This document shows positions 4,121 to 52,923 of a DNA stretch of 53,432 nucleotides, one piece after another. Source of the stretch: Alphaproteobacteria bacterium. GTDB taxonomy: Bacteria; Pseudomonadota; Alphaproteobacteria; Bin95. Numbering within the stretch: the first letter of the stretch is position 1; each line of letters opens with the position of its first letter. The stretch lies in NCBI GenBank assembly GCA_026710105.1, contig JAPORR010000112.1, positions 1 to 53,432 on the forward strand, written 5' to 3'. The position numbers and the translations under genes were made by a program. The notes below the pieces were generated by a model. The model was not told the DNA's origin, did no database searches, and worked only from the letters and a program-made list of their open reading frames with translations.

Positions 4121-5569
4121 TCAATGGCCTTTTCCAATAACGCCCACCAATTTGCGCCGCCGGCGCTGTGCGGAGGACGCAATACCCATTGCCTCTCGGT
4201 ATTTAGCGACTGTGCGGCGCGCAATGTCGATACCCTCGACGCGCATCGCGTCTGCCAGCTTGTCGTCCGAGAGTGTCTTGCCAGGCTCTTCGGCGTCGAT
4301 CAGCGTCTTCAGCCGGTGCCGAACCGCTTCGGCTGAATAGACCTCGCCGCCGCCCGTCCCGGCGATCGCGGCGGTAAAGAAGTATTTGAGATCGAAGAGA
4401 CCAAGAGGCGTGGCCATGGTCTTGTTCGCCGTCACGCGGCTGACCGTGCTCTCATGGATGCCGACTGCCTCCGCAATGTCCCGGAGCGTTAGCGGACGCA
4501 GATACCGCACCCCGTGTGCGAAGAAAACCCGCTGCCGGCGCACGAGTTCGACGGCGACCTTGAGCATGGTTTCCGCCCGCTGGCCGAGCGCCTTCACCAG
4601 CCAGTTCGCGCTGCTCAGCCGGTCGGCGAGGAACGCGCGATCGGCGTCCGAGGACGTATCCCCCTCCACTCGCGCATAATATTCGCGGTCCACCAGCACG
4701 CGCGGCAATGCCTCGTCATTGAGCTCGACCGCCCAGCCGCCGCCAGCATGGGCGCGCACCAGAATATCCGGAATGATAGGGCCGACGGCGGCATCACCCT
4801 CCAGGGTTGAAGCGGGCTTGGGGTCGAGCGAGCGCAATTCGCGCACCATCCGCGCCAGCTCTGCCTGATCGACGCCACAGATCCTGGCGAGCGCTTCGAG
4901 GCGCCCAGCGGCCAGCAGGTCCAGATTGTCGAGCAGCGCCGCCATGGCCGTTCCATAGCGGCCCCGGTCGCGCAATTGCAGCGCCAAGCACTCAGCGAGC
5001 GAGCGGGCGAACAGGCCTGCGGGCTCGAATTGCTGCAGGCTGAGTAGCACCCGCTCGACATCCTCCGGCAAAGCACCCAGGCCGCAGGCAAAGCGCTCTA
5101 GATCGGCGGTGAACCAGCCGGAAGGATCAAGCGCGTCTATCACCGCGCGCCCAATCAACCGGTCGCGGGGGTCGGTGATATCAAGCATCAGCTGCTGTTC
5201 GAGGCGGTCGCGTAGGCTGGGTTCGTCTGCCAGGCGCTCCTCCGGGCCCGGCAGGTCGCCATCCAAGCCGGCAATACTGCGGGGAAAGGCCGCAAACCCG
5301 TCTGCGGCAAGGAGGCGGTCGCCTGCGGCTTGGGCGGCGAAGGGCGGGTCGGCGGGCAGGTCAGTGGCAGTATCTTCGCTGTCTGGTTCGCCGCGCTTCA
5401 ACAGCGGGTTCTCCTCAAGCTGGGCCTCAACAAACGCCTCCAGTTCGAAATTGCCCATCTGCAGCAGCCTAATCGACTGCTGCAATCTGGGCGTCATCGC
5501 CAAACCCTGGGCCTGACGTTGCCCCAATCCAAGCGTCATCGTCCTCATGCGGGCGTTTACCGCTCCCAT
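4121..5569 (-). CDS. rpoN: RNA polymerase sigma-54 factor
   Basis: N-terminal LGLGQRQAQGLAMTPRLQQSIRLLQM; HTH HESTVSRVTANK; RpoN box ARRTVAKYREAMGI. Confidence 0.95.
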   Translation of the reverse strand: MGAVNARMRTMTLGLGQRQAQGLAMTPRLQQSIRLLQMGNFELEAFVEAQLEENPLLKRGEPDSEDTATDLPADPPFAAQAAGDRLLAADGFAAFPRSIAGLDGDLPGPEERLADEPSLRDRLEQQLMLDITDPRDRLIGRAVIDALDPSGWFTADLERFACGLGALPEDVERVLLSLQQFEPAGLFARSLAECLALQLRDRGRYGTAMAALLDNLDLLAAGRLEALARICGVDQAELARMVRELRSLDPKPASTLEGDAAVGPIIPDILVRAHAGGGWAVELNDEALPRVLVDREYYARVEGDTSSDADRAFLADRLSSANWLVKALGQRAETMLKVAVELVRRQRVFFAHGVRYLRPLTLRDIAEAVGIHESTVSRVTANKTMATPLGLFDLKYFFTAAIAGTGGGEVYSAEAVRHRLKTLIDAEEPGKTLSDDKLADAMRVEGIDIARRTVAKYREAMGIASSAQRRRRKLVGVIGKGH

Positions 5570-5604: not shown

Positions 5605-6392
5605 CTACAGGCTGAAACTGTCGCCTAGATAGACGCGGCGGACATGCTCGTCGGCGATGATTTCCGCCGGTGCACCCTCCTTGAGAATGACCCCGCCCGC
5701 GAGGATATAAGCACGATCCACAATCTCCAGCGTCTCGCGGACATTGTGGTCGGTAATCAGCACTCCGATACCGCGGTCCTTGAGATGGGAGACCAGGTCG
5801 CGGATTTCACCGACGGCGATGGGATCGATGCCGGCCAGCGGCTCATCTAGCAGGATGTAGTTCGGGCCGGCAGCGAGTGCGCGCGCGATCTCGACGCGCC
5901 GCCGCTCGCCGCCGGACAGCGCCAGCGCGGCCGAACGGCGCAGATGGCTGATGGCGAACTCCTCTAGCAGGTCCTCAAGCACCTCGGCACGCAAGGCGCG
6001 GTGGCTTTCGACGACTTCCAGTACAGCGCGTATGTTTGCCTCGACTGTCAGGCCACGAAATATAGACGGCTCCTGCGGTAGATAGCCGAGCCCGAGCCGC
6101 GCGCGGCGATAGAGTGGCAAGCTGGTTACATCCTGTCCGTCGATGCTGACATCCCCGCTGTCAGGCGCCGTCAGGCCGGTAAGGATGTAGAAACAGGTGG
6201 TCTTGCCAGCGCCATTGGGTCAGGCGCCGTCAGGCCGGTAAGGATGTAGAAACAGGTGGTCTTGCCAGCGCCATTGGGTCCGAGCAGACCCACGGCCTCG
6301 CCCCGGCCTACGGAAAGCGAGACATCGCGCAGCACTGTGCGCCTGCGATATCGTTTGGCAAGGCGGGAGGCGACAAGGCCAGGAGCCGTCAT
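5605..6392 (-). pseudogene. lptB: LPS export ABC transporter ATP-binding protein LptB, frameshifted by a 59-bp tandem duplication
   Basis: N-terminal part (6171..6392) carries Walker [11 protein letters not shown]-terminal part (5605..6120) carries [15 protein letters not shown] and [12 protein letters not shown]. The two lie in different frames, separated by a 59-bp tandem repeat. Removing one copy gives a continuous 242-aa ORF (...[40 protein letters not shown]...). Confidence 0.9.
6160..6280. repeat. 59-bp tandem direct duplication (62 bp of identity between offset copies) inside lptB
   Basis: 6160-6221 and 6219-6280 are identical (gtcaggcgccgtcaggccggtaaggatgtagaaacaggtggtcttgccagcgccattgggtc); period 59, 3-bp GTC microhomology at the edges. 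Confidence 0.97.
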
Positions 6393-7186
6393 TGTGCCGG
6401 CGCGAGGTCCGTTTCGCCGGGCTCGAACAGGCCACTAACACGCTGGCCGGCGCCTGCGACCAGACGGCTGCGGCCCTTTGCAAGGTCTAGCTCGGCGCAT
6501 TCACCAGCCATCCGGTTGGGGCCTTGCTGCAAGCGGACATTGCCGCAGATCTCGGCCGTCAGCGCTTTGGTGTCGTAAAAGCCGCGCTCGCCAGTTACGA
6601 TGTTCTCACCGCTGCGGACCTCGACTTGGCCGAACACTTCCAGACGCCGGGCAGCGAGCCCGCCTTCGTCCGTGTCCTCAAACCGCAAGACCATGGTTTC
6701 CGCCGAGACCGACTCCTCCGCCCGCACCGCCCGCGCGGCGCCGCGCGCCACGGCGTAGTTTTCGTTCTGATGCAGTTCGAGGCTGCCGCGAGCCGTGATC
6801 CGGTATTCGGCGGTCCTGAGCGCTAGATCACCGCCGCGCATCACGATGAGCGATCGGTTGAGATCGTAGGTTGCTTCCCCGCCGTTTGCGGTTCCGTCCG
6901 GTGAGCTGATGGTTACTCCACCCAGCGCCTCGATCCGATCAACCTGAGTCTTGCCTTCCTCATCCGGCCGGTAATGGGCCCGCACCATCTCTGCCTCCAG
7001 CACGAGGCCGCCACGCTCGGCGCGGACATTGCCGTCCGCAATATAGACATTCTCGTCGCGCCGCCACTCAATGCTTCGGGACGCTTGGATTTGGAGCGGG
7101 CCGCCGGCCCCCGCAAGGTCGAGTTCGAACCCCCAAGCCGCCGCCGAGGCCAGCACCGGCAAGATGGCAAGCGCTGCCCTATTCAT
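6389..7186 (-). CDS. lptA: LPS transport periplasmic protein LptA (OstA-like)
   Basis: Signal peptide [19 protein letters not shown]; OstA-like repeats ([36 protein letters not shown]...); adjacent to lptB and lptC. Confidence 0.85.
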
Positions 7187-7472
7187 TGGGGACTTATACA
7201 CGGAGGTTGGCATCAGCCTTCCCCCGCATTGATTTCACGGCTCGTGACTTCTGCCAACGCCCCTCCCCGTGTAGCAGCCCCAATCCCGGAGGCCGGTATG
7301 TGCGCCGCGTTGATGGCGGCATTTCCCGGGCGAGCGTAACAGTCACACGAATGATACCTGCGTTATGCGGGAGACAGCGCGACCGGCCGCACATATGGCA
7401 TGCCTGAGCATGTCTTGCCACGAAACCTGCCCCGGAAGGGCAAGCTCGTCAACTCGCCTATGTAAGCCCCTT

Positions 7473-8105
7473 TCATTGCGACGTCGCCTTGGGATCAAGG
7501 CTCAAGGAGGCATGGCCAAGCAGGCGGATCCTGTTGCCGCCGTCCAGCACACGGAAGCCCTCGGCTCGAAACCGGCCCTCGGCGGCCTCGCCTTCCACCG
7601 GACTATCGCCCGACGCCGTCTTGTCGATCAGGTTCACGAACGCCTCCCGGGTGTTGATGGCGAAGCCAGACTCGTGCTCGAGCCGAACCTCACCCTGAAG
7701 GCGTACAGTCCGCTCTGTCCAGTCCACGACACCGCTCTCGCCCGTGCCGGAGAGCCACGCCCCGTCCGGAAGGACGATCCAGGCTTTCGGACGATCCATG
7801 AGAAAGCGCTGGCCTTCGGCGCCGAGCCGGCGCACACCGACGGAGCGGATCGAATAGGGCCGATCCTCGTCCCAGCCGAAGGCCTCCATATTGGCTATAG
7901 TGAGCGTCGCCGGTATCTCGTCCTTCAAATTCGGCGCCAGAATATCGTCAGTCTCCGGCCAAGCGAAGACCATGAGCAGCAGCGCCGCAGCTCCGGCCGG
8001 CAACGCCACCTTCGTCGTCCGCACGAAGAACGAATAGATGCCCGGTCCCCTGGACCGTCGGCGCATACCGGCGAATGCAAGATATGCCCCGCTGCGGGCC
8101 AACAT
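7473..8105 (-). CDS. lptC: LPS export protein LptC
   Basis: Single N-terminal TM (VALPAGAAALLLMVFAWP) then an OstA/LptC-like domain; position between kdsD and lptA. Confidence 0.75.
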   Translation of the reverse strand: MLARSGAYLAFAGMRRRSRGPGIYSFFVRTTKVALPAGAAALLLMVFAWPETDDILAPNLKDEIPATLTIANMEAFGWDEDRPYSIRSVGVRRLGAEGQRFLMDRPKAWIVLPDGAWLSGTGESGVVDWTERTVRLQGEVRLEHESGFAINTREAFVNLIDKTASGDSPVEGEAAEGRFRAEGFRVLDGGNRIRLLGHASLSLDPKATSQ

Positions 8106-8108
8106 AGC

Positions 8109-9065
8109 TTAGACAATCCCGGCGCGGAGGCAGTCATGGACATGGATGATGCCGACTGGCAGGCCGTCTTCAACGACAAACAGTGCGGTGATCTGAGACT
8201 CATTCATCACCGCTACTGCCTCCGCCACCAGCGCCCGCGGGCGGATAGTCTTAGGCGACGCGGTCATAATCGCCGAGACAGGGCGCTGCAGCAAGTCGAT
8301 GCTCATCGAGCGGCGCAGGTCGCCATCGGTCACGATGCCGAGTAGCGCGCCCGCCCCATCCGCCACGCCGACGCAGCCGAACGCCTTGGACGAGATCTCG
8401 ATCAGCGCCTCAGCCATCAACGTGTCGGGGCGGACGAGCGGCATGCTGTCACCAGCATGCATGATGTCAGAGACAAGCTTCAGGCTTGCGCCAAGCGATC
8501 CGCCAGGATGCAGGATACGGAAATCGTCAGCGGAGAATCCCTTCCGCTCCAACAGCGCCACCGCCAACGCATCGCCAAGCGCCAGCATCATGGTGGTGGA
8601 GGTGGTAGGCGCCAGGCCCATCGGGCAGGCCTCGCAGACCGTCGGCAGCACAACCGCAAGCGCGGCCGCCTCCGCAAGCGGACTGTCGGCATTGGCCGTC
8701 ACGGCGACCAGCGGCACCGAGTAACGCGCCGCATGGGCGATAACGGGAGCGAGCTCCACCGTGCCACCGGAATTCGACAGCGCGAGCAGCGCATCGCCCC
8801 GCGCGATCATACCGAGGTCACCATGGGCTGCCTCGCCGGGATGGACGAAATGTGCGGGCGTGCCCGTCGACGCTAGCGTGGAGGCGATCTTGATGGCGAC
8901 ATGCCCACTTTTGCCCATTCCGGTCACGATCACCCGCCCGCTGGCGCCGGCCAGGATATCGACCGCCTCGTCGAAGGCGCTATCCAGGCTGCCGGCGAGA
9001 GTCAGCAGCGCGTCAGCCTCCATCGTCAGAACCCGACGTCCGGCCTCGCGCACCACATTATCCAC
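8109..9065 (-). CDS. kdsD: arabinose-5-phosphate isomerase (KdsD/KpsF family), SIS + CBS domains
   Basis: SIS domain GRVIVTGMGKSGHVAIKIASTLASTGTPAHFVHPGEAAHGDLGMI; CBS pair. GTG start at 9065 inferred. Confidence 0.9.
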   Translation of the reverse strand: MDNVVREAGRRVLTMEADALLTLAGSLDSAFDEAVDILAGASGRVIVTGMGKSGHVAIKIASTLASTGTPAHFVHPGEAAHGDLGMIARGDALLALSNSGGTVELAPVIAHAARYSVPLVAVTANADSPLAEAAALAVVLPTVCEACPMGLAPTTSTTMMLALGDALAVALLERKGFSADDFRILHPGGSLGASLKLVSDIMHAGDSMPLVRPDTLMAEALIEISSKAFGCVGVADGAGALLGIVTDGDLRRSMSIDLLQRPVSAIMTASPKTIRPRALVAEAVAVMNESQITALFVVEDGLPVGIIHVHDCLRAGIV

Positions 9066-9069
9066 TGAT

Positions 9070-9681
9070 TCAGTGGGCAAAAATGTCCTCCTCGGCCCAG
9101 CCTTCAAGGTCGAGGCGTGCGCGGACCGGCAAGAAATCGAAACAGGCGACCGCCAGTGCCATCCGGCCTTCTCTTGCAAGCATCGAGTCAAGGCATTCTT
9201 TCAGGCGGTGAAGGTGCAGCACATCGGCGGCGGCGTAGCCCCGCTGCGGCCCGGACAATTCGGCACTTCCCCAGTCCGACGACTGCTGTGCCTTGGACAG
9301 TTCAACGCCGAGCAGTTCCTTGCAGAGATCTTTCAGGCCATGCTGGTCGGTATAGGTGCGCGCTAGCCGGGAGGCAGTGCGGGTGCAATAGACGGGTCGG
9401 GCTACCGTACCGAGGTAATACTCCAACACGGCGAGGTCGAAGCGCGCGAAATGAAACAATTTGGTCACGTCCGGATCCGTTAACAATGCTTTCAGGCGCA
9501 GCGCGGCATAATCGCCGTCTGGAAACTGGACCAGATGCGCATTGCCGTCGCCAGCGGACAATTGCACCACACAGAGCCGGTCCCGGGACGGTTTCAGTCC
9601 CATGGTCTCGGTATCGACAGCCACCATCTTGCCGAAGCCCAAGCCTTCGGGAATGTCGTTGTGGTGGAGATGGACGGCCAT
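9070..9681 (-). CDS. rnd: ribonuclease D
   Basis: 3'-5' exonuclease motifs VAVDTETMGLKPSRDRLCVVQLS, LFHFARFDLAVLEYYLG, YAAADVLHLHRL. Confidence 0.9.
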   Translation of the reverse strand: MAVHLHHNDIPEGLGFGKMVAVDTETMGLKPSRDRLCVVQLSAGDGNAHLVQFPDGDYAALRLKALLTDPDVTKLFHFARFDLAVLEYYLGTVARPVYCTRTASRLARTYTDQHGLKDLCKELLGVELSKAQQSSDWGSAELSGPQRGYAAADVLHLHRLKECLDSMLAREGRMALAVACFDFLPVRARLDLEGWAEEDIFAH

Positions 9682-42713: not shown

Positions 42714-43916
42714 TCAGCGGCTGCCTGCGTGGATCACTTCGCCGAAGGTCACCCAGCGCTCGCCATCGAAGCGGGCGAGCTGCTCGGACTGGATCGGATA
42801 GAAATCCTCCGGAGAAGTATTGACAGTAATGCCTGGCATGATCATCGGCAGTTCGATGTCCTTGAGATTGGCCGCGCAACCCATAATGCCCTCTCGGGAC
42901 AGGTCCTCGCAGGTGTCGAGCACATGGTGCATGAGCCGGGAAACATTGTAACCGAAGGCGTAATTGACATCCGTCATGTCGGCGTCCGGCATGTTCTTTT
43001 CCATGAAGCCGACCCATTCCTTGTAGCCGGGATCGTCGTGCCACTGCGGGTCTACAGGATCCTTGATATACAGTGCTGTAATGAGGCCCGTGGAGCATTC
43101 GAGGCCCGCCGGCGTCAGTGTCGCGCCCACCGAGGAGGACACATTGTTCAGCAGATGCACCGGTTTCCAGCCGATCTCGCAGGACTTGCGAATGGCCTGG
43201 GCGGCGAATTTCGGGATGGTGATGTTGAAGAAGACATTGGCTCCACTCTCCTGCATCTTCAGGATCTGGCTATCCACTGTCGGGTCGGTGACCTCATAGG
43301 GCAGCATGGAGACCACGAGTTCATCCGCCTTGTCGCCAAGGCCGTGCAGAAAGCCGTCGCGGTAGTCCTTTCCGTAGTCGTCGTTCTGGAACAGGATTGC
43401 GATTTTCGGATCCTCGATATTCTCGAGCACGTATTTTGCGTAGATCTCGCCCTCGACGTCATAAGTGGGTTGGAATCCCATGGTCCAGGGATATTTGTCC
43501 GGCTGGCCCCATTTGCTGGCGCCGGTCGCGAGGAACAGATGTGGGACCTTCTTCGCGTTCACATAGCGGTGGATGGCTGAATTAGTCGGCGTGCCGAGCG
43601 TGTTGAACAAGAAAGCGACCTGCTCCTGTTCGACTAGCTTGCGGACCTGCTCGACTGTGCGCGGCGGGCTGTAACCGTCGTCCAACGAGATGAAGTCGAT
43701 CTGGCGCCCCTGGATACCACCCATCTCGTTCACCATCTCGAAATAGGCAGTGATCGTCTTGCCTATGACGCTATAGACCGAGGCCGGCCCCGAATAGGGG
43801 TTGGTGTTGCCAATCTTGATCGTGGTGTCGGTGATGCCGGTCATATCCGCGGCCTGAGCCGTTCCGGCAAGCAAGGCGATGGCTGCGCCGGCGGCGAGTA
43901 GGTTCTTGATGCGCAT
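42714..43916 (-). CDS. branched-chain amino-acid-type ABC transporter substrate-binding protein
   Basis: Signal peptide LLAAGAAIALLAGTAQA; Peripla_BP_6-like ITDTTIKIGNTNPYSGPASVYSVIGKTITAYFEMVNEMGGIQGRQIDFISLDDGYSPPRTVEQVRKLVE. Confidence 0.92.
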   Translation of the reverse strand: MRIKNLLAAGAAIALLAGTAQAADMTGITDTTIKIGNTNPYSGPASVYSVIGKTITAYFEMVNEMGGIQGRQIDFISLDDGYSPPRTVEQVRKLVEQEQVAFLFNTLGTPTNSAIHRYVNAKKVPHLFLATGASKWGQPDKYPWTMGFQPTYDVEGEIYAKYVLENIEDPKIAILFQNDDYGKDYRDGFLHGLGDKADELVVSMLPYEVTDPTVDSQILKMQESGANVFFNITIPKFAAQAIRKSCEIGWKPVHLLNNVSSSVGATLTPAGLECSTGLITALYIKDPVDPQWHDDPGYKEWVGFMEKNMPDADMTDVNYAFGYNVSRLMHHVLDTCEDLSREGIMGCAANLKDIELPMIMPGITVNTSPEDFYPIQSEQLARFDGERWVTFGEVIHAGSR

Positions 43917-43951
43917 GGAGTTGGTCCCTCCCTTTCGGTTGACTCCTGTTG

Positions 43952-44956
43952 CTATCGGCCGCTGCCGGCCGGTCTACGTTTCCACCAGGCGAATGCCCGT
44001 TCCACCGCGCCCCAGACCCCGAACGGCACGAAATATATCACAAGGATCAGGAAAATACCGAAAATCGCCCAGGGCGGCGGCACGAACGGATAGGTGCGGC
44101 TAATATCCTGCGCGAAATTGGGGAGGAAGACAAGGAACAAGCCACCGAAGATCACGCCCGGAATCGATACGATGCCCCCGACCACGGATCCGATCAGAAG
44201 ATTGACGGCGAGGAAGAAATTGAAGGCATCGGGCGCCACGAACTCGGTGACGAAGACGCTGAGGGCTCCGGCGATGCCGGTATACATGGCGCTGATGCCG
44301 AAGGTTGTCGTCTTGTAGAGAGCCGTATTGATGCCCATGGTGCGGGCCGCGATCGGGTTGTCGCGGATTGCCATCATCGCCCGGCCCGAGCGGCTGTGCA
44401 GCAGGCACCAGGCCAGCGCCATCAGTAGAACCATCACCGCAAGCGTCACATAGTAGAGCGATTGGTCGGCGCTGAGCCCCTCGATCAGCGGCTCCGGCTT
44501 CGGCACGAACAGCCCCTGAACGCCACCTGTCCAATGTTCGAAGGCATCGAATTTGAGCAATTGCGGCGTCGCCACAGCGAAAGCAAAGGTGGCAAGCGCG
44601 AGATACAATCCTTCCAACCGCAGCGCCGGCAGACCGAATAGGAAGCCGACCGCGAACGCAACCAGTGCCGCGACTGGCAGGGTGGCATAGTGATTCCACT
44701 CGAAATGATAGAGCAGGATCGCGGCGGTATAGGCACCAACAGCATAGAACGCGCTGTGCCCGATGGAGAATTGCCCATTATATCCGGTCAGGATATTGAG
44801 CCCGAGCAGTGCGACCCCGTAGGCCATCGCCTGGGTGAACTGGAAACTGGTGAAGTCTGACACGAGGTGCGGCAGAAAGCCCGCGAACAGGAGGGCGACG
44901 GCAACAGCAGCCAGCAATTGCGGTGTGACGGGGTTCGGGCGGTCCATGGCGGTCAA
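43952..44956 (-). CDS. livM: branched-chain amino-acid-type ABC transporter permease (LivM)
   Basis: GLNILTGYNGQFSIGHSAFYAVGAYTAAIL; FGLPALRLEGLYLALATFAFA. Confidence 0.92.
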   Translation of the reverse strand: MTAMDRPNPVTPQLLAAVAVALLFAGFLPHLVSDFTSFQFTQAMAYGVALLGLNILTGYNGQFSIGHSAFYAVGAYTAAILLYHFEWNHYATLPVAALVAFAVGFLFGLPALRLEGLYLALATFAFAVATPQLLKFDAFEHWTGGVQGLFVPKPEPLIEGLSADQSLYYVTLAVMVLLMALAWCLLHSRSGRAMMAIRDNPIAARTMGINTALYKTTTFGISAMYTGIAGALSVFVTEFVAPDAFNFFLAVNLLIGSVVGGIVSIPGVIFGGLFLVFLPNFAQDISRTYPFVPPPWAIFGIFLILVIYFVPFGVWGAVERAFAWWKRRPAGSGR

Positions 44957-45828
44957 ACCCTCCGCACCACGACGCGGCCGAACAGCCCAGCCGGCTTGAA
45001 GACGAGCACGCCCACAATCAAGATCAACGCGAAGGTGAGCTTGAGCTCGGAGCCGCCTGGCACATATTGACCGACCCAGTTCTCCAGCACGCCGACGACG
45101 AGTCCGCCCAGCACCGCGCCGCCCGGGCTGGACACGCCGCCAAGGAGAGCACCAGCAAAGCCGTAGAGTAGCACGCCCGCCATCATGTTTGGCTCCAGGA
45201 AGACAATCGGCGCGACTAGTATGCCGCCGACAGCACCGATGGCCGCTGCGAGCCCCCAGCCCAGTGCCAACATCCAGCCGACCGAAACGCCGACCAGCCT
45301 GGCCGAGTCTGGGTTGGCGGCGGCAGCGCGCATGGCGAGCCCGACGCGCGTGAAGCGGAAGAAGGCGAAGACCAGCGCCAGCACGCCAAGCGTGAGTGCG
45401 ATGACACCGATATGATGTGGGCCGATCAGGGTTGATTTGAAGCCGAGATCCGCTGGGAAGAGGCTCGGAAACGGCTTGATGGTGAACTCCCAGATCCAGC
45501 CTGCCACGGCGTTGAAGATGACCAGTAGACCGATGAACACGATGATCTGGTTGAGCACCGGGGCATTCTCCACGGGCTTCACGATCACCCGCTCAATCGC
45601 CACCCCAGCCAGGAAAGACAGGCCCACCGCGAGCAGGAAGGCCAGCCAGACCGGCGCGCCGAGGCCCACCAACGTCCAGGCTATATAGGTCGAGAACATC
45701 GCCATTTCGCCTTGGGCGAAATTGAAATGGTCGGTGGCCTGGTAGATCATCACCACCGCCAGCGCTACGCAGGAATAGATCGACCCGATCGCGAGGCCGG
45801 CGAACGTCAATTGCAAGAACAGATCCAT
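44953..45828 (-). CDS. livH: branched-chain amino-acid-type ABC transporter permease (LivH)
   Basis: MDLFLQLTFAGLAIGSIYSCVALAVVMIYQATDHFNFAQGEMAMFSTYIAW; ATG at 45828. Confidence 0.92.
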   Translation of the reverse strand: MDLFLQLTFAGLAIGSIYSCVALAVVMIYQATDHFNFAQGEMAMFSTYIAWTLVGLGAPVWLAFLLAVGLSFLAGVAIERVIVKPVENAPVLNQIIVFIGLLVIFNAVAGWIWEFTIKPFPSLFPADLGFKSTLIGPHHIGVIALTLGVLALVFAFFRFTRVGLAMRAAAANPDSARLVGVSVGWMLALGWGLAAAIGAVGGILVAPIVFLEPNMMAGVLLYGFAGALLGGVSSPGGAVLGGLVVGVLENWVGQYVPGGSELKLTFALILIVGVLVFKPAGLFGRVVVRRV

Positions 45829-45844
45829 CTTCAGGCGCCCGCTT

Positions 45845-46555
45845 TCAGTAACCGAGATAGATGCGGCGGATGTTTTCGTCGTTGCGCAGCAGCTCAGACT
45901 CGCCACCCATCACCACCTTGCCCGTCTCCAGCAGATAGGCGTGATCGGCGAATGCAAGCGCGAGGCTCGCATTCTGCTCCACCAGCAGCATGGACGTACC
46001 CTCGCGCTCGCGGATGCGTGCCATGATCTCATAGATCTCCTGCACGATCAGCGGCGCAAGGCCGAAAGAGGGCTCGTCGAGCAGCATGAGCTTCGGGCGT
46101 AGCATTAGCGCGCGGCCGATGGCGAGCATCTGCTGTTCGCCGCCAGAAAGCGTTCCCGCCTGCTGGCGGCGGCGGTCGCCAAGCCTCGGGAAATAGCCGT
46201 AAACGCTCTCCATGTCGGCGGCGATCCCGGCCTTGTCCTTGCGCGTATAGGCGCCAAGGACAAGGTTCTCTTCGACCGACTGGCGCACGAAAGTACCACG
46301 GCCTTCCGGCACATGCGCGATGCCGAGCCGGACAACGCGCTCGGTCGAGAGGCCGGAGAGATCCTGCCCGTCGAACACGACCTCGCCATCCGTGCGCACC
46401 ATGCGGCAGATGGCCCTCAGTGTCGTTGTTTTGCCCGCACCATTCGCGCCGAGAATCGCTGTGATTGACCCTTCGTCGAGCCGGAAATCCACCCCGAACA
46501 ACGCCTGCGTCTGGCGGTAATAGGCTTCCAGCGCCCGGACCTCGAGAAACGCCAT
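45845..46555 (-). CDS. livF: branched-chain amino-acid-type ABC transporter ATP-binding protein (LivF)
   Basis: ILGANGAGKTTTLRAICRMV; LSGGEQQMLAIGRALMLRPKLMLLDEPSFGLAP. Confidence 0.93.
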   Translation of the reverse strand: MAFLEVRALEAYYRQTQALFGVDFRLDEGSITAILGANGAGKTTTLRAICRMVRTDGEVVFDGQDLSGLSTERVVRLGIAHVPEGRGTFVRQSVEENLVLGAYTRKDKAGIAADMESVYGYFPRLGDRRRQQAGTLSGGEQQMLAIGRALMLRPKLMLLDEPSFGLAPLIVQEIYEIMARIREREGTSMLLVEQNASLALAFADHAYLLETGKVVMGGESELLRNDENIRRIYLGY

Positions 46556-47325
46556 CAGTGCGCGGTCCCGAGATAGGCTTCGATGACCTTGGGGTCGCGC
46601 TGCACCTCTTCCGGCGTCCCATCCGCGATCTTGCGGCCGAAATCGATCGCTACCACTTTATCAGACACCTGCATGACCAGGCTCATATGATGCTCGACCA
46701 AAAGCACGGTGATGCCGCGCTCGTCCCGTATCTGCCTGATCTGCTGCATCAGATGGTCGAGCTCCTCGTGGTTGAGGCCGCCCGCTGGCTCGTCCAGCAA
46801 CAGCAATTCCGGCTCACTGGCGAGCGCACGCGCCAATTCGACCCGCTTCTGATAGCCGAAGGGCAAGCCACCGACTGGCGCATGCGTCACTTCGGTCAGG
46901 TCCGTGAACGCGATCAACTCCATCGCGCGGGCCATCAGCCCGGCTTCTTCCCGACGGACCCAAGGCAGGCGCAAGGCATTGGACACATAATCGCTATCAG
47001 TGCGCGCATGGCCGCCAATCATCACATTGTCGAGCACGGAGAGCGTAGGGAAGAGTGCGAGGTTCTGGAACGTGCGGCCGATACCGAGCGAGGCGATCCT
47101 GTTAGGCGGCAGGTCCAGCAGTGAGCGGCCCTTGAACAGGATCTCCCCTGCATTCGGCGTATAGAGCCGCGAGAGACAGTTGAAGAGGGTTGTCTTTCCC
47201 GCGCCGTTCGGGCCTATCAGCCCGACAATCCAGTCCTTCGGAATATCGAAGGACACGCCGTCCAGCGCTACAATGCCGCCGAAATGCACTGCGACATCGC
47301 GGACTTCGAGAACCGTCTGGTTCAA
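46555..47325 (-). CDS. livG: branched-chain amino-acid-type ABC transporter ATP-binding protein (LivG)
   Basis: [53 protein letters not shown]. Confidence 0.93.
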   Translation of the reverse strand: MNQTVLEVRDVAVHFGGIVALDGVSFDIPKDWIVGLIGPNGAGKTTLFNCLSRLYTPNAGEILFKGRSLLDLPPNRIASLGIGRTFQNLALFPTLSVLDNVMIGGHARTDSDYVSNALRLPWVRREEAGLMARAMELIAFTDLTEVTHAPVGGLPFGYQKRVELARALASEPELLLLDEPAGGLNHEELDHLMQQIRQIRDERGITVLLVEHHMSLVMQVSDKVVAIDFGRKIADGTPEEVQRDPKVIEAYLGTAH

Positions 47326-47484: not shown

Positions 47485-49308
47485 TCAAAATGTCCCCTCC
47501 AGGAATTCCGCCTCACTGCGGTGGCATTCTATGGCATGCCGTCCGCCGAGATGCCGAACGGGTGGTGTTTCCTGGTCGCAAAGTCCTTTGACTCCTATAG
47601 AACAGCGGTCGAAGAAGGGGCAACCCGTATCGGTCATAGTGACGATGCGGTCGAGGCCAGCCTGCGCCACTCTGCTCTCCATCGTCTCTTCCAGCCAGCC
47701 GATGCGTAACTCCGGAACAGAGGCGATCAGCAGCCGAGTATAGGGATGATAAGGCGGCGAAAGCACGCGGTCAGTCGGCCCTTGCTCGACCACCCGCCCG
47801 GCATAGAGCACGACGATGTCGTCGGCGAAGGATGCGACAGTGGACAGGTCGTGGCTGATGAAGACGAAGGACACGCCGCTCTGCCGCCTGAGCCGCTTGA
47901 GGAGCTCGATGATATTGGCGCCGACGATAGTGTCGAGTGCGGAGATCACCTCGTCGCAGAGCAGCACTTCTGGCGATGCGGCTAGTGCGCGGGCTAGATT
48001 GACGCGCTGCTTCTGCCCACCGGAAAGCTCTTCGGGATAGCGTCCGGCAAATTCCGCCGGCAGCTCGACCATCTCCAACAGCGCGCTGACCCGCCGGCGC
48101 TTCTCCTTCCCGCGCAAGCCGAAGTAGAATTCCAATGGGCGGCCGAGAATGCCATCGATCCTCTGGCGCGGATTGAGCGCGACATCTGCCATCTGGAACA
48201 CGAACTGGATCCTCTGGAGCTCGCTACGGTTCCGTTGCCGGAGGCTGGGTCGGAGCGGCGCGCCGTCCAGCAGGATCTCTCCTTCGGTCGCCGGCAGCAG
48301 GCCGGACATGACCCGCGCGAGGGTGGATTTGCCGCAACCCGATTCGCCGATAATCCCTACCGTGTGCCCACGCTGCACCACCAGATTGACATCGCGCAGC
48401 ACCTTGACGACCGCGGAACCGTCCCTTTGCCGGCCGTAACCCGCGCTTACACCCTTTACTTCAATCGCCGGACTCTCACGCACATGGTCTGCCAGCGCCG
48501 TATCACCCTGGCCCGCCGCCGGCGGCGGGCGCACCGCTGCCATCAGGCGGCGCGTATAGTCGTGAGAAGGGTTGTTGATGACCTGATCTGCTTCCCCGTG
48601 CTCAAGGACCTCGCCCGCATAGAGAACGACGATGCGGTCCGCGATCTGGGCGACGACCGACAGATCATGAGTGACATAGAGCGCCGCCGCTCCTTCGTGC
48701 TTGATGACGGACTTGAACGCCTTGAGCACCTCGATCTGGGTTGTCACATCGAGGGCGGTGGTAGGCTCGTCTAGAATCAGCAGGTCCGGTTTGCCGCAGA
48801 GCGCCATCGCCGCCATCAGCCGTTGCAGCTGACCACCGGATACCTGGTGAGGATAGCGCCTGCCGAGGCGGTCTGGATCAGGCAATTCCAGCGCCCGGTA
48901 GAGCGCTTTGGCTCGCTCTTGCGATTCTTCGCGCGTCATCTGGCCATGGAGCACGGGCGATTCCGTCACCTGTTCGCCGATGGTGAGTGCCGGATTGAAG
49001 GTAGCGGCCGCGCTCTGGGCCAGATAGGCAACGTGCCGGCCGCGCATGGCGCGCTTGTCGTCCGGTGGTATGGAGAGGACGTCCCGGCCTTCCAGCCGCA
49101 CCTCGCCGCCGGTGAATGCCAGGCCGGGCTTGGAATATCCGAGCGCCGAGAGGGCGATGGTGGTTTTGCCGGAACCGGATTCGCCGATAAGCGCGACCAC
49201 TTCGCCCCGCTCGATAGTGAAGCTCACGCCCTTGACGATGGGCACGAGCCCACCGTTATCCTTATGTGCCTTGATCGTTAGGCCGTCTACTTCGAGGAGC
49301 GCTGGCAT
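47485..49308 (-). CDS. dipeptide/oligopeptide ABC transporter, fused two-domain ATP-binding protein (DppD-DppF type)
   Basis: Two ATPase modules: ALIGESGSGKTTIALSAL...VSGGQLQRLMAAMALCGKPDLLILDEPTTALD and GIIGESGCGKSTLARVMSG...LSGGQKQRVNLARALAASPEVLLCDEVISALD; ATG at 49308. Confidence 0.94.
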   Translation of the reverse strand: MPALLEVDGLTIKAHKDNGGLVPIVKGVSFTIERGEVVALIGESGSGKTTIALSALGYSKPGLAFTGGEVRLEGRDVLSIPPDDKRAMRGRHVAYLAQSAAATFNPALTIGEQVTESPVLHGQMTREESQERAKALYRALELPDPDRLGRRYPHQVSGGQLQRLMAAMALCGKPDLLILDEPTTALDVTTQIEVLKAFKSVIKHEGAAALYVTHDLSVVAQIADRIVVLYAGEVLEHGEADQVINNPSHDYTRRLMAAVRPPPAAGQGDTALADHVRESPAIEVKGVSAGYGRQRDGSAVVKVLRDVNLVVQRGHTVGIIGESGCGKSTLARVMSGLLPATEGEILLDGAPLRPSLRQRNRSELQRIQFVFQMADVALNPRQRIDGILGRPLEFYFGLRGKEKRRRVSALLEMVELPAEFAGRYPEELSGGQKQRVNLARALAASPEVLLCDEVISALDTIVGANIIELLKRLRRQSGVSFVFISHDLSTVASFADDIVVLYAGRVVEQGPTDRVLSPPYHPYTRLLIASVPELRIGWLEETMESRVAQAGLDRIVTMTDTGCPFFDRCSIGVKGLCDQETPPVRHLGGRHAIECHRSEAEFLEGTF

Positions 49309-50243
49309 CAGATCATTCTCTTTGCCAGCCGCCCGCCGGCATGGGCGGAGACATCGTCCACGACGAGGTTGACGGCGATGGTAAGTGTAGCGATCGCGAG
49401 AGCTGGCACCAGCGGCGCGATCGCGCCATAGGGCAAGCCGGAGAGGTTTTCGCGCACCATGCCGCCCCAGTCGGACTGGGGCGGCTGCACCCCAAGGCCC
49501 AGGAAGCTCAGGCTCGAGATGAACAGGATGACATAGACGAAGCGCAGACCGAAATCGGTCGCCATCGGCATGGCGACATTGGGCAAGATTTCGCGGGTAA
49601 CGATCCACCACAGCCCCTCGCCGCGGACCCGCGCCGCCTCGACGAAATCGCTGACCTTGACATCCAGCCCGAGCGACCGGGCGATCCGGAACACGCTGGA
49701 GGCATAGATCAAACCTGTCAGCACAATCAGTATGGGGATGGTGCTGCCTATGGCGGCGATCATCACGAGCGCCAGCATGATGCTCGGAATCGACAGGATG
49801 GCGTCGTTGAAGCGGCTCAGCACGGAGTCTGTCATGCCCCCACCAACCGCTGCCGCAATGCCGAGCGTAACGCCCACGAGATAGGCGAGCAGCGTCGAGG
49901 CGAGCGAGATGCCGATGGTCATGCGCGCGCCGAACAAGGTGCGTGAGAGCGTGTCGCGGCCAAGATAATCGGTGCCGAGCCAGGCGACCGAACCCGGCGG
50001 CTGGTAATCCGTCTCGGGATAGGGATTGTCGCTGCCTGGCACGATGAACAGCGCCTCGTCCAGGATGTCGGCCTCGTGATAGGGCGAGATCGACGGTCCG
50101 ATGAAAACGATGGCCATCCAGAACGCAACAATGCAGACCCCGAGCTTTCCACTCCAGGAGAGTCTCAGCCGGCGCCGCGGCGGAGCGTCCGGCAACTCCT
50201 CGAAGGTCGTTGCGGTATCGGTCCTGTCGATGGGTTCGGCCAT
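49308..50243 (-). CDS. dipeptide-type ABC transporter permease (DppC-like)
   Basis: WLGTDYLGRDTLSRTLFGARMTIGISLASTLLAYLVGVTLGIAAA...RVRGEGLWWIVTREILPN. Confidence 0.92.
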   Translation of the reverse strand: MAEPIDRTDTATTFEELPDAPPRRRLRLSWSGKLGVCIVAFWMAIVFIGPSISPYHEADILDEALFIVPGSDNPYPETDYQPPGSVAWLGTDYLGRDTLSRTLFGARMTIGISLASTLLAYLVGVTLGIAAAVGGGMTDSVLSRFNDAILSIPSIMLALVMIAAIGSTIPILIVLTGLIYASSVFRIARSLGLDVKVSDFVEAARVRGEGLWWIVTREILPNVAMPMATDFGLRFVYVILFISSLSFLGLGVQPPQSDWGGMVRENLSGLPYGAIAPLVPALAIATLTIAVNLVVDDVSAHAGGRLAKRMI

Positions 50244-50254
50244 GGGCGATCTCT

Positions 50255-51262
50255 CTATTTCGGATGCCGGAGTCTCGGGTTCGACAGGATCGACACCATG
50301 TCAGCGACGAAGATCAGCACGACATAGGTAGCGCAGAAGATCATCGCGCAGGCCTGTACCAGCGGCAGGTCGCGTGTCTGCACGGCGTCGATCATCAGCT
50401 TGGCCAGTCCCGGATAGGCGAATATCGTCTCGACGATGACGACCCCGCTCACGAGATAGGCGAGGTTGAGTGCGATGACATTGGCGATGGGCCCGATGGT
50501 GTTGAACAGCGCATGGCGGAGAATGATCCGCCTGCGCGGCACACCCTTCAGGATCGCCATTTCTATATAGGGCGAGCTCATGACATTGAGCACAGTGGCC
50601 CTGGTCATGCGCATGATCTGTGCGGAGGCGACGATAATCAGCGTGAGTGCGGGCATAGCGAGCGCGCGCACCAGTTTCATACCGGTCTCCTGCCCGCTGA
50701 TATAGGCCGTGGCAGGTAGCCAGCCGAGCTGGACCGCCACCACCAGCACCAGCAGGGTGGCGACCAGGAATTCGGGTACCGAGATAAGCCCTAGCGTGGT
50801 AAAGGTGACCGCTCGGTCGAGCTTCGTGCCGGGATACATGGCGGCCAGCAGCCCTACAGTCACCGCGAAGGGCACAGCGACGACCGCTACCGCGCCGGCG
50901 AGCTGCAAGGTATTAGCGAGGCGGGGTATGAGCATTTCGGAAATCGGCGTGCCGACGGTGCCGGCTCCAGCACCTGCCTTGGAGACGCCAAGATCCCCAG
51001 ACAATAGGTCGCTCAGCCAGATAAAATAACGGATATGCGCCGGCTCATCTAGGCCAAGCTTGGCGCGCAGCGCCGCCAAGGAGTCCGGCGTCGCCATCTG
51101 ACCAAGGATGATGTTGGCTACATCGCCCGGCAGGATGCTTGTGCCGATGAAGATCAGCACCGACACAATGAACAGTGTCATGATGCCGAGCGCCGTCCGG
51201 CGCAGCATTGCGGTCAGCAGCGTCATTCTATAGGCGATCCGGAGCGGTCCGCCATGCGTCAT
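50255..51262 (-). CDS. dipeptide-type ABC transporter permease (DppB-like)
   Basis: MLRRTALGIMTLFIVSVLIFIGTSILPGD...MRMTRATVLNVMSSPYIEMAILKGVPRRRIILRHALFN. Confidence 0.92.
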   Translation of the reverse strand: MTHGGPLRIAYRMTLLTAMLRRTALGIMTLFIVSVLIFIGTSILPGDVANIILGQMATPDSLAALRAKLGLDEPAHIRYFIWLSDLLSGDLGVSKAGAGAGTVGTPISEMLIPRLANTLQLAGAVAVVAVPFAVTVGLLAAMYPGTKLDRAVTFTTLGLISVPEFLVATLLVLVVAVQLGWLPATAYISGQETGMKLVRALAMPALTLIIVASAQIMRMTRATVLNVMSSPYIEMAILKGVPRRRIILRHALFNTIGPIANVIALNLAYLVSGVVIVETIFAYPGLAKLMIDAVQTRDLPLVQACAMIFCATYVVLIFVADMVSILSNPRLRHPK

Positions 51263-51342
51263 CCGGAAAGCGGTCGGGGCGAAGGACCCGCGTGGTGAAA
51301 GCCCCGCGGGTCCATGTCATCCAGACGACGTCACGGGCGGGC

Positions 51343-52923
51343 TTACTCCGCCATCCACGCGAACTCGGGCCACTCATAGGCGCCGACTGCACCGAACGGC
51401 GCATTCGGGATCCCCTGGATCTTGTTGCTGGCGCCGTCGACCTCGTTCACATGGCAGGGAATCACCATACCGCTGCCATTGTGGATCAGGGTCTGCATTT
51501 CACAGAGCATAGCATGGCGCATGGCGGGATCGGTTTCGGCGAGCTGGAGCTGCAGCAATTCGCCCATCCGCTCATTGTTCCAGAACGTGTCGTTCCAGGC
51601 CGCATTCGGTGCGAACTGAATGGCCATCTGCGCATTTGCGGTCGGACGCATGTTCCAGGAAACGACATTAATCGGCTCCTTCATCCACACCGCGCCCCAG
51701 TAACCGTCCGCCGGCACTTTCTTGACCTTGAGGTCGAAACCAATCTTCTTGAGGTTCGCCTGCATCAGAAGGCAGATTTCTTCGATGCCATGGCGCACCG
51801 GCGCGACATACAGTTCAGCGGACGTGACGCCCGACTTCTCGAGATGGAACTTGGCCTTGTCCGGGTCGAACATGCGCACCGCCAACTCATCACAATGGTC
51901 TGGACCGAAGGCGGGCCCAATCGGGTGGTCATTGCCGACAGTCCCGTGGCCCTTGAGGATAGACCGCACGATGCGCTCGCGATCCTGGATATATTGCATC
52001 GCCTTGACGAAATCATCGTTTTCGCCCGGTGCCGTGTTCTTCAGGATGCAGATGCCGGTATAGCTGCTGCTCGGCGTTGAGATGACACGCACCCCCCCGG
52101 CCTGCTCGATCCGTGCAATCGCCTTGGGGTCAACGCCCGCGATCAGGTCTACATCGCCGGCGATCAAGGCATTAGCCCGAGACTGCGGGTCGGTGATGGC
52201 GGTGATCTCGACCGCATCGAAATTCGCCCCGTCGCGCCAGTAATTGGGGTTGCGCGAATGGAGGGACCTCACACCGGGTTCAAAGGAGTCGAGCACAAAC
52301 GGCCCGGTACCGTTGCCCTTACGGAAGTCCTGCGTGTCCATCTTGACGACCTTGGCCTGCTTCTCGGTCAGCTTGGCTGGAAGGTCGGAATCCGGAGACA
52401 TGAGGATGGCCTTCACGGTGTAGTTGTCTACCCGTTTCCATTCCTGGACCGAGGCAAACAGCGCCTTGGCCGTGGAGGGGGAGTCTGGCCCGATATGGCG
52501 GTTCATGCTCCAGACGATGTCGTCGGCTGTCAGCGGCGAGCCGTCATGAAATTCCACACCCTTGCGAATCTTGAAAGTGTATTCGGTCGCATTCTTGTTG
52601 GCCGACCATTCCTCGGCCAGCTCGGGTGCGAGCATGACGTTGTCGCGCATCTGTACGAGGCCGTTATAGGTGGCCCTGCCGCGCGTATAGTCGATGCCTG
52701 AGGTAAAGACGATCGGGTCCATCTGATCGTCAGGCCCGTGGATATTGTTGGCGTAGCGCGCTGTGCCGCCCTTGCGCGGCGTGGCCGCGAGCGCGCTGGA
52801 CGCATTCAGGAACCCAGTAGCAGCCGTGCCTGTAACGCCGAGAGCGCCTAGGGCGGTGAGGAAGTCGCGGCGGCCCATCTTGCCGTCCCGAACCATCTGC
52901 TGGAACTTCAGGATATCTTTCAT
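51343..52923 (-). CDS. dipeptide-type ABC transporter substrate-binding protein (SBP_bac_5), Tat-like signal
   Basis: GRRDFLTALGALGVTGTAATG Tat-like leader; ELAEEWSANKNATEYTFKIRKGVEFHDGSPLTADDIVWSMNR. Confidence 0.94.
   Translation of the reverse strand: MKDILKFQQMVRDGKMGRRDFLTALGALGVTGTAATGFLNASSALAATPRKGGTARYANNIHGPDDQMDPIVFTSGIDYTRGRATYNGLVQMRDNVMLAPELAEEWSANKNATEYTFKIRKGVEFHDGSPLTADDIVWSMNRHIGPDSPSTAKALFASVQEWKRVDNYTVKAILMSPDSDLPAKLTEKQAKVVKMDTQDFRKGNGTGPFVLDSFEPGVRSLHSRNPNYWRDGANFDAVEITAITDPQSRANALIAGDVDLIAGVDPKAIARIEQAGGVRVISTPSSSYTGICILKNTAPGENDDFVKAMQYIQDRERIVRSILKGHGTVGNDHPIGPAFGPDHCDELAVRMFDPDKAKFHLEKSGVTSAELYVAPVRHGIEEICLLMQANLKKIGFDLKVKKVPADGYWGAVWMKEPINVVSWNMRPTANAQMAIQFAPNAAWNDTFWNNERMGELLQLQLAETDPAMRHAMLCEMQTLIHNGSGMVIPCHVNEVDGASNKIQGIPNAPFGAVGAYEWPEFAWMAE

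Follow-up and report, generated by a model that had tools for sequence, protein, structure and literature searches.

A 59-base tandem duplication interrupting the only lptB of a draft alphaproteobacterial genome is probably an assembly artefact or a minority allele

We analyzed a window of 53,432 nucleotides (contig JAPORR010000112.1 of the alphaproteobacterial assembly GCA_026710105.1), to which all window coordinates below refer. The gene for LptB, the ATPase of the LPS export ABC transporter, lies on its minus strand at 5605 to 6392 and is frameshifted by a duplication, being otherwise open from the Walker A motif to the stop codon. The LptB profile TIGR04406 matches both of the resulting fragments, and the downstream fragment alone scores 315 bits (314.7 bits in the genome search) against a curated cut-off of 240, which upholds the gene identity proposed in an earlier reading made from the sequence only. 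The upstream fragment (6171 to 6392, minus strand, 73 amino acids) contains Walker A, after which it continues out of frame until a stop codon. The downstream open frame (5605 to 6219, minus strand, 204 amino acids, stop at 5605) begins PNGAGKTT; it is immediately preceded by an in-frame TGA, and its first usable start, a TTG at 6120, falls after Walker A. With no start before Walker A, this frame is not expected to give a functional product. Thus, the single uninterrupted frame that should lead from the start through Walker A and the signature to the H-loop is broken by the duplication. The sequence-only reading had already described a frameshift of lptB, which we find on the minus strand, and had placed the break just after Walker A with resumption in another frame; the break stands, with the refinement that Walker A residues occur in both fragments, being encoded within the repeat (in a stretch of 20 residues). 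It had also predicted an LptB of 242 amino acids once one copy is removed, and the gene counted with one repeat copy indeed has 242 codons.

The order of lptA, lptC, kdsD and rpoN around lptB is familiar from other proteobacteria, and the window has the same neighbors, but its lptB frame is interrupted by the 59-base duplication in this assembly. The genes lptA (6389 to 7213, 274 amino acids), which adjoins lptB, and lptC (7473 to 8105, 210 amino acids), which is also placed by its position, are intact open reading frames on the minus strand and provide the genomic context of an lptB gene, both with profile scores below the curated cut-offs (TIGR03002, E = 1e-11, for lptA; TIGR04409, E = 4e-8, just below the cut-off, for lptC). 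The arabinose-5-phosphate isomerase gene kdsD (8109 to 9191, minus strand; TIGR00393, 277 bits against a cut-off of 203.7) and the sigma-54 gene rpoN (4121 to 5569, minus strand; TIGR02395, 406 bits) are likewise intact, so that lptA, lptC and kdsD, which had been described as intact, do lie in open frames beside lptB. LptD, LpxC, LptF and LptG are all encoded in open frames in the assembly. Because the frames for these four proteins and for LptA, LptC and KdsD are open, the cell apparently makes and exports LPS.

The duplication itself is exact. Positions 6160 to 6221 (copy 1, the downstream copy in the direction of the gene) and 6219 to 6280 (copy 2, the upstream copy), both read on the minus strand, are identical at 62 of 62 bases with a period of 59, the identity extending no further than these 62 bases. 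Tandem Repeats Finder returned the same element (6160 to 6280, period 59, 100% match), in agreement with the repeat noticed in the sequence-only reading, and with base composition taken into account such identity would arise at random with a probability of ∼10^-35 per position. The two copies overlap by the three bases GTC (6219 to 6221), the microhomology that the sequence-only reading had reported. A 3-base match at a junction is a common leftover of replication slippage or template switching, and the GTC is compatible with a slippage junction, but as evidence it is weak: microhomology of at least three bases is expected at 6.3% of random breakpoints. A polymerase-stalling hairpin was also considered. 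A small hairpin, TGGGTC-CGAGCA-GACCCA, does sit at the copy boundary, yet shuffled sequence folds equally well (z of -0.2 to -0.6), and neither a simple-sequence tract nor an unusual DNA structure was seen at the duplication.

The gene was then compared with its counterparts in relatives. Over the downstream 204 codons, six congeners gave dN values of 0.036 to 0.067 and dS values of 0.54 to 0.87 (dN/dS of ∼0.05 to 0.1). By this measure lptB is under strong purifying selection and without decay; relaxed selection and an old pseudogene are ruled out. Both window copies align to one place in each of the six congeners, which therefore have one copy each. The lptB frame was uninterrupted at all 110 related loci, the six congeners included, in two sets (30 loci from genomes of the same genus, family and class, and 80 from a genome contig collection) that were chosen by LptB match, so that badly broken copies might escape while a break of the window's type would be retained. 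At 104 of these loci this was established by a pattern search, which found an open frame extending from Walker A through the H-loop to the stop over 204 to 207 codons; the remaining 6 were translated individually. No tandem duplication was found inside lptB at any of the 110 loci, the two tandem-repeat matches falling outside the gene, and an apparent stop in the lptB of one relative (G021, locus L040) proved to lie outside the conserved gene, whose own frame is unbroken. As lptB shows no decay and its two repeat copies are identical, the two-copy allele would on sequence grounds be either very recent or absent from the organism altogether.

A seventh congener, G007, was left out of the copy-number comparison as its contigs break at the site. 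The end of its contig C298 (L044, L200) and the start of C233 (L140, L201) fall inside lptB, a few bases from the window's copy boundary, without overlap and with ∼2 bases missing; by a rough estimate the chance of such a coincidence in one genome is ∼0.2%. Assembly may be difficult at this site.

Searching the whole assembly with the LptB profile gave 84 matches, of which only the window locus exceeds the 240-bit cut-off. The runner-up scored 157 bits, which rules out a second lptB elsewhere in this assembly, an option that the sequence-only reading had offered together with this genome search as its check. The scores of the other ABC ATPases lie in the same range as those of the best non-LptB ABC ATPases in relatives with an intact LptB.

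The assembly amounts to 3.35 Mb in 246 contigs (completeness 100, contamination 0.91). Contigs printed by de Bruijn assemblers overlap at their ends by k, and the default k of metaSPAdes is 55. Among 113 contig ends sampled, the ends of six contig pairs had exactly 55 bases in common, pointing to a de Bruijn assembly with k = 55. A 16S rRNA gene was looked for in the assembly and not found, and one sampled scaffold contains an 82-base N gap. These two features and the 55-base end overlaps suggest a metagenome bin built from short reads. When k is 55, a tandem repeat of 62 bases becomes a loop in the graph, and the number of passes around it is set from coverage or paired reads. As the repeat, at 62 bases, is longer than k, the graph leaves its copy number unfixed. 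Conversely, one-copy reads alone cannot yield a loop in such a graph, so some molecules bearing the junction probably existed. The bin contains no separate one-copy lptB contig; the two-copy allele is the only one in the assembly.

In the 1.29 Mb of the assembly that we sampled, the window's duplication was the only perfect non-array tandem duplication with a period of at least 22. On this sample, the assembly is not generally prone to such duplications; rather than a systematic fault of the assembler, the finding favors one local event, be it a rare but real mutation or a chimera formed in the library. A scaffolder that joined k-overlapping contig ends unmerged was rejected as stated, the overlaps being of 55 and not 59 bases; by reasoning, moreover, a common stretch of 62 bases would already have been merged in a k = 55 graph. 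The other tandem repeats with a period of at least 22 in the sampled sequence were arrays: one of 54-base units (L192, positions 40001 to 60000 of contig C3, from 16934 within that segment), which may be a repetitive protein-coding array, one of 33-base units (L228, contig C50, from 245) and one built of 10-base units (L141). The 54- and 33-base units are multiples of 3.

Bacteria with this type of outer membrane normally cannot dispense with lptB. A cell line fixed for the two-copy allele should thus not be viable, and the population most likely does not normally carry this form. Indeed, in the alphaproteobacterium Brucella abortus LptB is essential (PMC9938171). Taking together the draft nature of the k = 55, 246-contig assembly, the constraint seen on lptB across all relatives and the absence of decay, with a sole lptB among open LPS genes, we consider the two-copy lptB to be probably an assembly artefact or a minority allele rather than the organism's normal state. 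The contig break of G007 near the same boundary is a further hint of locally difficult assembly. We envisage that a few molecules carried the 59-base tandem duplication, either as a library chimera or from a rare or dying mutant, which could have arisen by ordinary replication slippage at the 3-base GTC match. Such molecules would add one edge to the k = 55 graph, closing a loop on the 62-base segment, and an assembler that went round this loop once would write the segment twice, while the living population would have an ordinary uninterrupted lptB. We infer that the junction reads were few and that the graph loop was the route by which the extra copy entered the contig. Several findings pull the other way: the graph needs junction-bearing sequence in the data, perfect out-of-frame duplications are no general habit of this assembly, the microhomology fits genuine slippage, and a one-copy contig is missing from the bin. 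For now, the duplication serves mainly as a warning: when a draft genome shows an essential gene broken, this tells more of the assembly, or of a rare molecule, than of the organism. Spurious frameshift pseudogenes are documented to arise from short-read assembly (PMC11017572), and another report describes metagenome assembly graphs as riddled with spurious cycles (PMC9104695). As in the former cases, a conserved gene looks broken in a draft assembly; at 59 bases, however, the window's duplication is longer than the small indels typical of such cases and implies that the graph contained a loop.

The sequence-only reading had listed an artefact and a recent mutation among its explanations; the evidence favors the artefact, or else a minority allele, and leaves the mutation unlikely. 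On the latter account, slippage at GTC recently produced a genuine 59-base duplication, now frequent in the population sampled, which abolishes or impairs lptB function; the cells would survive either through residual activity (low-level frameshifting, or reversion in some cells) or through an unusual tolerance of defective LPS export. An exact duplication with a 3-base microhomology is what such an event would leave, the repeat exceeds k so that junction reads must have existed, and identical copies with a low dN/dS fit a very recent origin. Against this, the gene affected is the sole lptB beside an intact LPS pathway, its counterpart is essential in Brucella (PMC9938171), all 110 related loci are uninterrupted, and no functional product is expected from a downstream frame that lacks a start before Walker A. 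A literature search on short microhomology-mediated tandem duplications in bacteria returned nothing usable.

A reversible ON/OFF switch had also been put forward, in which LPS export would phase-vary through frequent gain and loss of the 59-base direct repeat. Such a switch requires that the two alleles coexist in a population and that the switch is retained for some reason. Loss of one copy from adjacent perfect repeats can be frequent enough to be useful, and a parallel is known in Streptococcus pneumoniae, where spontaneous tandem duplications in the type 3 capsule gene, cap8E and tts are reported to control capsule phase variation (Waite 2001, 2003, cited in PMC4022640). The likeness is that of a tandem duplication inside an open frame inactivating a surface-polysaccharide gene. 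However, the capsule is dispensable and its switching was observed, whereas LPS export is normally not dispensable and the window's gene is present in the assembly only as the two-copy allele. The repeat is also not kept in relatives, neither in the six one-copy congeners nor at any of the 110 loci, the boundary hairpin is no better than shuffled sequence, and a duplication that arose once does not amount to an evolved switch. Nothing points to a reason for keeping a switch at lptB, and with no relative carrying the duplication in the comparison of related strains, no unusual structure at the site and LptB essential in Brucella, we regard the proposal as very improbable. If it were true that reads carry the two-copy allele at high frequency, this would be a rare natural reversible knock-out of an essential envelope gene; that a large share of cells in a natural alphaproteobacterial population should have a self-reverting duplication in their only lptB, with LPS export off in a subpopulation, strikes us as highly implausible. 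It is scarcely credible, finally, that a divergent second ATPase elsewhere serves LptFG and leaves the window's lptB a true pseudogene, for although ABC ATPases are numerous in this genome, none reaches the LptB cut-off, their scores are those of non-LptB ATPases in LptB-intact relatives, and the lptB frame is without decay.

Further genes were noted in the window. On the minus strand, 42714 to 47325 holds a gene for a Peripla_BP_6 periplasmic binding protein and two ABC ATPase genes, an arrangement like that of branched-chain amino acid type importers, and a family 5 solute-binding protein gene and a permease gene lie at 49308 to 52923. The adjacent minus-strand open reading frames 1274 to 1804, which has a TPP-binding N domain, and 705 to 1280 appear to encode two distinct subunits of a single thiamine-diphosphate enzyme.
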